DNA from: an uncultured Kordia sp.
GTDB lineage: Bacteria > Bacteroidota > Bacteroidia > Flavobacteriales > Flavobacteriaceae
NCBI RefSeq assembly: GCF_947496985.1
Contig: NZ_CANMEZ010000012.1
Span: 1 to 64,000, forward strand
Length of the DNA stretch: 64,000 nucleotides
Direction of reading: 5' to 3'
A program made the position numbers and the translations under genes. How positions within the stretch are numbered: position 1 is the stretch's first letter; every line of letters starts with the position of its first letter. A model generated the notes under the pieces. It worked only from the letters and a program-made list of their open reading frames with translations. It was not told the origin of the DNA and did no database searches. Of the stretch, positions 3,363-14,721 are shown piece by piece.

Positions 3363-3686
3363 ATGTGGGAAGAACGACTTAAAATTTTTGACGCTATTGT
3401 AGCAAAATGTCCTCGCTTTGAACGCAAAGGAAAAAATATGATTTACACATCTGCTAACGGGCACATGTTTGGATTGCTTAACAAAGCAGGCGAAATTGGC
3501 TTTCGATATGGAAAAGAAGTTCAAGAAAAATATATTACAGCATTTAATTCCGATTATTACAAATCGTATGGAGCTACCATGAAAGGTTATGTATTAATTC
3601 CTGAAGAAATGCTAACTGATTTAGATAAGCTTGCCAACTATTTAAATGAAAGTTACGATTATGTAATGTCGTTAGACCCGAAATAA
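3363..3686 (+). CDS. hypothetical protein, TfoX N-terminal-like
   Basis: A 107-residue cytoplasmic protein without signal peptide. The pattern of a short helix, then KGKNMIYTSANGHMFGLLN and a strand ending in GFRYGKEVQEKY, resembles the TfoX/Sxy N-terminal domain of small bacterial proteins. The resemblance is by eye only. The ATG at 3363 is the first in frame, 40 bases after the lipoprotein stop. A strong hairpin terminator follows. No function is assigned. Confidence 0.6.
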   Translation: MWEERLKIFDAIVAKCPRFERKGKNMIYTSANGHMFGLLNKAGEIGFRYGKEVQEKYITAFNSDYYKSYGATMKGYVLIPEEMLTDLDKLANYLNESYDYVMSLDPK

Positions 3687-3697
3687 AAATTACACAT

Positions 3698-3732
3698 AAA
3701 AAAACGCTTTCACCTTAGGTAAAAGCGTTTTT
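3698..3732. terminator. bidirectional rho-independent terminator
   Basis: The stem pairs AAAAACGCTTT (from 3698) with AAAGCGTTTTT (to 3732), extended by ACC/GGT around a short TTA loop. A runs on one side and T runs on the other let it serve both convergent genes: the 107-residue protein (plus) and the lanthipeptide-like precursor (minus). Confidence 0.8.
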
Positions 3733-3750
3733 CGACATTCATACAATTTC

Positions 3751-3951
3751 CTATCCACGACGGAAGCAACCTGCACTACCATGACAAATAACTGGAAGTG
3801 TAAATGGTGCGCAACCTAATGTTGCAGGAACAGTAACTCCTCCTGATGGTTGACAAGCTCCTCCGCTAATTCCTCCAACAACGGCAGCTGCTCCTAATTC
3901 AGAAACTGTACGTTTACTTAATGTCAATTTTTTTAAATTTCGTTTTTTCAT
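3751..3951 (-). CDS. class I lanthipeptide-like precursor peptide
   Basis: A 66-residue peptide with the layout of a ribosomally made, modified peptide. The leader MKKRNLKKLTLSKRTVSEL matches the class I lanthipeptide leader type common in Bacteroidetes (KKLxLxKxT[IV]SxL). It is followed by double-glycine motifs (VVGG at 24-27, ISGG at 28-31). The core is small-residue rich and holds Cys33, Cys47, Cys56 and Cys62 plus Ser/Thr at 29, 36, 40, 44, 51 and 59, which is what lanthionine ring formation needs. It ends in GCFRRG. No LanB, LanC, protease or transporter gene lies in the window, so the modifying enzymes would have to act from elsewhere. The family assignment is from the leader pattern; product and modification are inference. 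Confidence 0.75.
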   Translation of the reverse strand: MKKRNLKKLTLSKRTVSELGAAAVVGGISGGACQPSGGVTVPATLGCAPFTLPVICHGSAGCFRRG

Positions 3952-4100
3952 AATAATAAATTTTTATGTTATACCTATATGGGTATTATTTCAATTTTCA
4001 TTACCCAAAAAATGTATATTTATATAAATCACTCGTTTGATTGTTAATAACAACTGTAATTATATCCTGCCTACAATAATTTACAATCGCGTAAGTTTTA

Positions 4101-14500: not shown

Positions 14501-14721
14501 ATGAAAAAGAAATTTAAACAACTTGATATTAAACAAAAAGTCAATTTCTAATCTAAGCGAAAAATTTGTAATTATTAGGTGGAAGAAATAAAATGTCTAT
14601 CATTATTAAATGTCTAATTGGGCCATCAAATGATACTTTAGATCGCGACTGCCCATCTTCTTGGTGTCAACCAATACAATTTAATCAAATTATAAAGAAG
14701 CCTAGGAAACTATTTACTTGA
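14501..14721 (+). pseudogene. frameshifted lanthipeptide-like precursor
   Basis: Three reading frames together give a recognisable precursor. From ATG 14501 the frame reads MKKKFKQLDIKQ and stops at 14549. In a second frame the same stretch continues as KSISNLSEKFVI. In the third frame, from 14575, it reads LGGRNKMSIIIKCLIG and later DRDCPSSWCQPI, ending at the TGA at 14719. Put together this is a class I leader (MKKxxKxLxIxxKSISNL), a double glycine and a short core with Cys, Ser and Thr. The layout is that of the intact peptide at 3751-3951. At least two frameshifts would be needed, so I call it a pseudogene. The rest of the 14275-14806 gap shows only the promoter-like element. Confidence 0.5.

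Follow-up and report, generated by a model that had tools for sequence, protein, structure and literature searches.

Many precursors of the prochlorosin and SyncM lanthipeptide systems lie apart from their synthetase. A single promiscuous LanM serves the many prochlorosin precursors of marine picocyanobacteria (PMC10783134), and SyncM, one LanM with 79 precursors, has been termed the most flexible (PMC12328550); the well-known lanthipeptide enzymes with many substrates, ProcM and SyncM, belong to class II. For the Bacteroidetes, PMC7268733 describes class I precursors with LxLxKx5L leaders, often with a double glycine (GG) and C39 proteases, and names pinensins with a split LanB. The genus Kordia is rich in biosynthetic clusters, with lanthipeptide among the types of Kordia antarctica (PMC10734526, PMC7477175, PMC13101523), and PMC11118758 reports up to 176 precursors of ribosomally synthesized and post-translationally modified peptides (RiPPs) per Bacteroidota genome, with Kordia as an example, and a LanC with a nucleotidyltransferase near Kordia precursors. 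Here we analyze a 64,000-nt stretch of DNA (the window) from an uncultured Kordia sp. (GCF_947496985.1, contig NZ_CANMEZ010000012.1, positions 1 to 64,000; contig C12 below), in which a short gene at 3751-3951 had been read, in an initial annotation made from the letters alone, as an orphan class I lanthipeptide-like precursor.

We consider it probable (roughly 0.8) that the product of this gene is the precursor of a class I lanthipeptide, with a leader of the Bacteroidetes type, and that it would be served by remote, shared LanB, LanC and C39 enzymes. The leader type was known, as the initial annotation had stated and as PMC7268733 bears out, and the Kordia system shares with those described there the leader motif, the GG, a split LanB with a separate elimination part, a LanC and a C39 exporter beside LanB. 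It differs from them in having a single LanB and no fewer than 206 precursor places, almost all of them distant from it. Mining around LanB or LanC, as for clusters of that type, would miss the window gene, and mining beside LanB misses 179 of the 181 peptides kept here, which lie more than ~20 kb away. As in the prochlorosin and SyncM systems, the genomic pattern is that of one synthetase and many precursors with a common leader and diverse cores in marine bacteria; unlike them, the Kordia system would have class I chemistry, with a split LanB and a LanC. It also has another leader type and a larger number of precursors (at least 206), and its cores, in the orthologue pairs tested, are under selection. 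The richness of Kordia in lanthipeptide-type precursors agrees with the account in PMC11118758, which in the parts consulted does not link scattered precursors to a single LanB, report co-occurrence of LanB and leader, or describe selected cores. Among titles and abstract openings, with subscription papers and supplements outside the survey, no description of one LanB with many dispersed precursors was found. The kind of system is already known; what is unusual is its scale, and the scatter of its precursors about a single class I dehydratase. The product itself is likely the undescribed natural product that had been suggested, although the leader type (PMC7268733) and the precursor richness of Kordia (PMC11118758) have already been published.

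The window gene and its dispersed family

The minus-strand open reading frame (ORF) at 3751-3951, with its ATG at 3951 and its stop at 3751-3753, translates to MKKRNLKKLTLSKRTVSELGAAAVVGGISGGACQPSGGVTVPATLGCAPFTLPVICHGSAGCFRRG, in which KKLTLSKRTVSEL matches the pattern KKLxLxKxTVSxL, as had been noted at first sight. The leader also has the LxLxKx5L form and the terminal GG of Bacteroidetes LanA peptides. Two double-glycine motifs had been counted, where the peptide has three GG pairs (residues 26-27, 30-31 and 37-38); GG27 is the presumed cleavage site, with GG31 as an alternative. The 39-residue core past GG27 does contain the four Cys and six Ser/Thr of the earlier count. Each of the four Cys has a possible upstream Ser/Thr partner, and we infer a ring pattern of 29-33, 44-47, 51-56 and 59-62. 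A leave-one-out profile of 61 other leaders from the same genome recognized the peptide at 39.6 bits (E 7.2e-12), the second-best of the 256 ATG ORFs in the window scoring E 0.7. The model TIGR04149, for GG peptides of Bacteroidales modified by radical S-adenosylmethionine (radical SAM) enzymes, gave no match to it at E<=10, and a Pfam match to SopE_GEF (E 0.3) was regarded as chance.

A search for further peptides with this leader, which the initial annotation had recommended, found at least 206 places in the genome (181 kept peptides and 25 further ones). With the window peptide as query 115 places were obtained (E<=10), and with NCBIfam model NF038153 (lant_leader_L1a) 131 (E<=1), 35 of them over its cut-off; together these gave 185 distinct sites, all of which were read, and four were dropped for want of a proper start or a leader. 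A profile of 62 leaders of this genome (A1, consensus MKKxxxKxLxLNKxxISxLxxxxxxGG), 61 of which NF038153 matches at E<=1, then gave at least 150 matches at E<=0.01 (the best 150 of 405 candidates), including 25 new places; all 14 of these that were read have leader, GG and Cys-containing core. The window leader is the first row of A1, so that A1 matches are circular for the window peptide. Grouped at a distance of 2 kb, the 181 precursors give 118 groups, of which 74 consist of a single gene, and they are spread over 18 contigs. LanB has two of them within ~20 kb, and the next nearest is 29 kb away. They share a start signal, with A at -12 in 163 of 181 and A at -3 in 160 of 181. In a crude test for a shared promoter, gapped words in the 150 bases upstream of the 181 precursors, compared with 264 long ORFs, were mostly A/T-rich and gave no regulon motif; the extracytoplasmic function (ECF) sigma factor of the LanB cluster is therefore not tied to the precursors.

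One split LanB and the leaders that follow it

The LanB and LanC genes that the initial annotation had placed outside the window are present in the genome: one gene matches PF04738 (LanB, E 1.1e-151), four match PF05147 (LanC) and there are four matches to PF03412 (C39). None of these matches lies on contig C12, so neither LanB nor LanC adjoins the window gene, in agreement with the earlier statement that no dehydratase, cyclase, protease or exporter is near; for the last two this covers PF03412, other protease and exporter families of the window not having been searched. LanB is split into a 751-aa LanB-N, aligning over nearly its full length with solved LanB proteins including NisB, and a 308-aa LanB-C (PF14028, TIGR03891), and is 97% identical to the LanB of Kordia jejudonensis. 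Its cluster on contig C1 contains, in order, genes for the ECF sigma factor, a tetratricopeptide repeat (TPR) protein, LanC, LanB-N, LanB-C, a TPR-AraC regulator, a small peptide and two precursors with the same leader; on the opposite strand stand HlyD and a C39-ABC protein which resembles the ComA and PCAT exporters and provides the peptidase-ABC transporter whose search had been proposed. The LanC beside LanB retains the CYG and CHG motifs, which presumably bind zinc. The dehydratase found is a LanB and not a class II LanM, although the genome was not searched with a LanM model; the four LANC_like ORFs, at 640 aa or less, are too short for a LanM.

The C39-ABC protein is the single such exporter among the genome's C39 matches. 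A second strong C39 gene (C7, 200 aa) was rejected as an exporter, standing among zinc-uptake genes, and so were the two weak matches, both VKOR proteins. The latter have 520 and 526 aa with a weakly C39-like N-terminal stretch (L159:6794-8356 and L047:1459-3039).

From these genes a mechanism can be proposed in which the only LanB pair of the genome, a 751-aa glutamylation part and a 308-aa elimination part, would read the window leader and convert Ser/Thr in the core to their dehydrated forms, a LanC would join the four Cys to these in thioether rings, and the C39 peptidase-ABC exporter near LanB would remove the leader by cleavage after GG and export the product. No fewer than 206 dispersed precursor places would share this machinery; leader binding, dehydration, ring formation, cleavage and export are all predicted from sequence. 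The genome has the pattern expected if one synthetase were to act on many precursors with a common leader, and the shared remote machinery for scattered precursors that had been postulated gains support, with one LanB pair and two of 181 precursors nearby.

To relate leader and enzyme we compared 299 genomes of the family. PF04738 was found in 25 of them and a leader over the NF038153 cut-off in 14, comprising 13 of the 25 LanB-positive genomes and one of the 274 LanB-negative ones (Fisher p 4e-15); at E<=0.01, 14 of 17 genomes with the leader were LanB-positive. All 11 Kordia genomes searched, our own included, have one LanB each, and A1 found between 117 and at least 150 leaders in each of the ten others. 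It found none in five LanB-negative genomes and 52, 16, 7 and 1 in four other LanB-positive ones, where A1, built from our own genome, may miss other kinds of leader.

Of the 20 LanB loci fetched, 19 have peptides with the same leader within 8 kb of LanB, and these 19 belong by their titles to Kordia, Lacinutrix, Leptobacterium, Psychroserpens, Aquimarina or Flavobacteriaceae; the one from Aminicenantes has none. A profile of 51 distinct leaders from these loci and our own cluster, the window leader not included, gave E 1.2e-7 for the window peptide. At E<=1e-3 it recovered 169 of 179 scattered peptides and 0 of 905 shuffled ones, and at E<=0.1 a single one of the 905. Since the adjacent peptides had been chosen by leader pattern, this shows that the two sets are alike; it does not make each adjacent peptide a substrate. 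At the Aquimarina loci (L188, L189, L195, L197) the peptides are short and repeated, with GGIGCHMF- or CPPPGMQCF-like tails.

Further gene arrangements were also seen. TPR-AraC regulators occur near LanB (L154:14623-16338) and near a precursor on contig C15 (L148:1598-3289), and may be linked to precursor control. At C1:149398-154270 (L156:5399-10271) the gene for a 460-aa Cys/Thr-rich protein with GPTGTQGCTQP repeats comes first, then those for an APH-like kinase, a HopA1-like protein and a LanC; we take this arrangement to resemble class V lanthipeptide sets, the repeat protein being the putative giant substrate. On C15 at ~9.7-13.0 kb (L148:5359-8613) three precursors with their own leader variant (MKKKFSRSLxLNKKSVASL, in two of the three) stand with a nucleotidyltransferase and a second LanC, LanB being elsewhere.

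Cores, selection and competing explanations

Core composition was assessed in 174 of the 181 precursors, seven having no GG at residues 15-46, and pairing in 166 after removal of eight near-duplicates. Cys makes up 11.6% of the cores, 0.02% of the leaders and 0.75% of 30 long ORFs in the window; Cys and Ser/Thr are both present in 174/174 cores, and 168 have at least two Cys. An upstream Ser/Thr partner can be assigned to every Cys in 159 of the 166 cores; with Cys fixed and the other letters shuffled, the expectation is 121.7 (sd 4.6, maximum of 2000 shuffles 137); permuting whole cores would give an expectation of 75.9. Downstream pairing of every Cys is possible in 36 cores, compared with 50.5 expected. 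Relative to Cys, positions -3 to -6 hold an excess of Ser/Thr (z 3.2 to 5.8) and positions -1 and -2 a deficit, as small rings predict.

These data bear on the possibility, which we consider unlikely, that the leader serves the C39 exporter only and that a Cys-rich peptide is secreted without dehydration, its Cys forming disulfides like those of unmodified bacteriocins. Export requires no more than a GG leader together with a C39-ABC exporter, one of 62 leaders has a weak match to a bacteriocin leader model, the Cys-rich core keeps its Cys in orthologues, and the two VKOR proteins of the genome are presumably of the disulfide-forming kind. Against this, C39 is present in 94 of the 299 genomes, including all 25 with LanB, and a leader over cut-off was found in 1 of the 69 with C39 and no LanB as opposed to 13 of 25 with LanB, which shows that the presence of the leader depends on that of LanB rather than of C39 by itself. 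In addition, the excess of Ser/Thr upstream of Cys is far above shuffles, an order that disulfides do not need, and the number of Cys is odd in 80 of 174 cores.

Modification of the window precursor by another RiPP enzyme, such as a radical SAM protein, the class V-like kinase/HopA1/LanC set (C1:150-154 kb) or the LanC and nucleotidyltransferase of C15, seems less probable still. Such LanC gene sets do occur in the genome, and PMC11118758 assigns some Kordia precursors to radical SAM enzymes. However, the window leader fits the profile of leaders adjacent to LanB, two of the three C15 precursors carry a leader variant of their own, and the class V-like set adjoins its own 460-aa repeat protein.

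For the class I reading itself, several observations weigh on the other side. The window peptide scores ~16 bits (15.9-16.1) with NF038153, below the curated cut-off of 22, so that of the leader models in which its inclusion had been looked for, the LanB-adjacent profile takes it in and NF038153 does not. TIGR04149 weakly matches 4 of 62 family leaders (best E 0.0092). A leader over cut-off is missing from 12 of the 25 genomes with LanB, and one genome (G199) has such a leader without LanB. The presence of three further LANC_like genes leaves it uncertain which cyclase acts. Finally, an excess of Ser/Thr also occurs at +2 of Cys (z 8.5); rings give no explanation for it, and CP[ST] repeats may be its source.

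Conservation was examined in 40 stretches of three sister genomes, picked by best leader scores (18 from G004, 12 from G009 and 10 from G001), in which 108 peptides were read; 48 were reciprocal best hits and 34 passed a filter of 50% core identity over 70% of the core, which lowers dN. In these 34 pairs Cys was kept at 98.1% of 160 core positions, 223 of 250 Ser/Thr positions still carried one of these two residues (unchanged: Thr 80.5%, Ser 77.1%) and other core residues were identical at 620 of 889. Concatenated G004 pairs gave dN 0.157 and dS 1.14 for the core (945 codons) and dN 0.127 and dS 0.81 for the leader (681 codons); a core dS above 1 despite the identity filter indicates that the retained cores are selected. 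Mean identity was 0.74 for cores and 0.78 for leaders, with the core ahead in 14 pairs.

Orthologues of the window peptide were found in G004 (85% identity) and G009 (73%). Compared with G004, 36 of 39 core residues are identical (dN 0.048, dS 1.13) and 20 of 27 leader residues (dN 0.14, dS 0.33), the core thus being better kept than the leader here. The residue three before Cys47 is Thr in our genome and G004 and Ser in G009, an exchange after which a ring would still be possible. The core is under purifying selection, and the window gene is a real, selected gene. That it is a decaying or unexpressed family member without function is very improbable: family members do decay, as a broken leader elsewhere in the window (Table 1) indicates, but the substitution rates of the core, the same lipoprotein-like gene near the orthologues in G004 and G009 and an intact start signal stand against it.

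The conservation of cores suggests products with individually selected functions, as signals or antibacterials, rather than a random library. The chances seem about even that a single split LanB, together with a single exporter, matures over 200 different dispersed precursors, with a like scale in Kordia generally, and that this would be the largest one-enzyme lanthipeptide repertoire, and one of class I, its single products individually conserved with dedicated functions. If so, a LanB acting on ~200 cores alike in little but their leader would be a natural test of the substrate tolerance of class I dehydratases and a ready supply of class I scaffolds, and the conserved cores raise the question of what use some 200 ringed peptides are to a marine bacterium.

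Features around the precursor gene

Table 1. Coordinates in the window of the precursor gene, its parts and nearby or related elements.
Feature	Position	Strand	Basis or remarks
Precursor gene, 66 aa, complete ORF with stop	3751..3951	-	sequence and orthologues
Leader, residues 1-27, GG at end (MKKRNLKKLTLSKRTVSELGAAAVVGG)	3871..3951	-	profile matches
Putative core, residues 28-66	3754..3870	-	Ser/Thr 29, 36, 40, 44, 51, 59; Cys 33, 47, 56, 62
Stable hairpin with A/T tails just past the stop codon	3700..3732		-20.4 kcal/mol for 3692-3740, z -7.4
A-run at -10 to -13, within the family start signal	3961..3964	-	upstream comparison
Inverted repeat GGGTA-N16-TACCC (gene's strand), upstream of the precursor	3981..4006		sequence and orthologue comparison
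Leader remnant of the same family, broken by frame shifts	14505..14561	+	sequence reading

The neighbours of the precursor gene are a gene for a 107-aa protein (3363-3686) and one for an 816-aa lipoprotein-like protein, both on the plus strand. G009 has both near the orthologue, but there the precursor flanks the 107-aa gene on its opposite side; of the two, the lipoprotein-like gene is the only one seen near the orthologue of G004. The hairpin is probably a two-way terminator common to the precursor and the 107-aa gene. The inverted repeat, which is complete at the G009 orthologue and reads GGGTA...ACCC in G004, stands upstream of the window gene alone among the 181 precursors and is a possible operator. 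The sequence GGGTAATGA occurs upstream of 4 of the 181 precursors, the window gene and three others.
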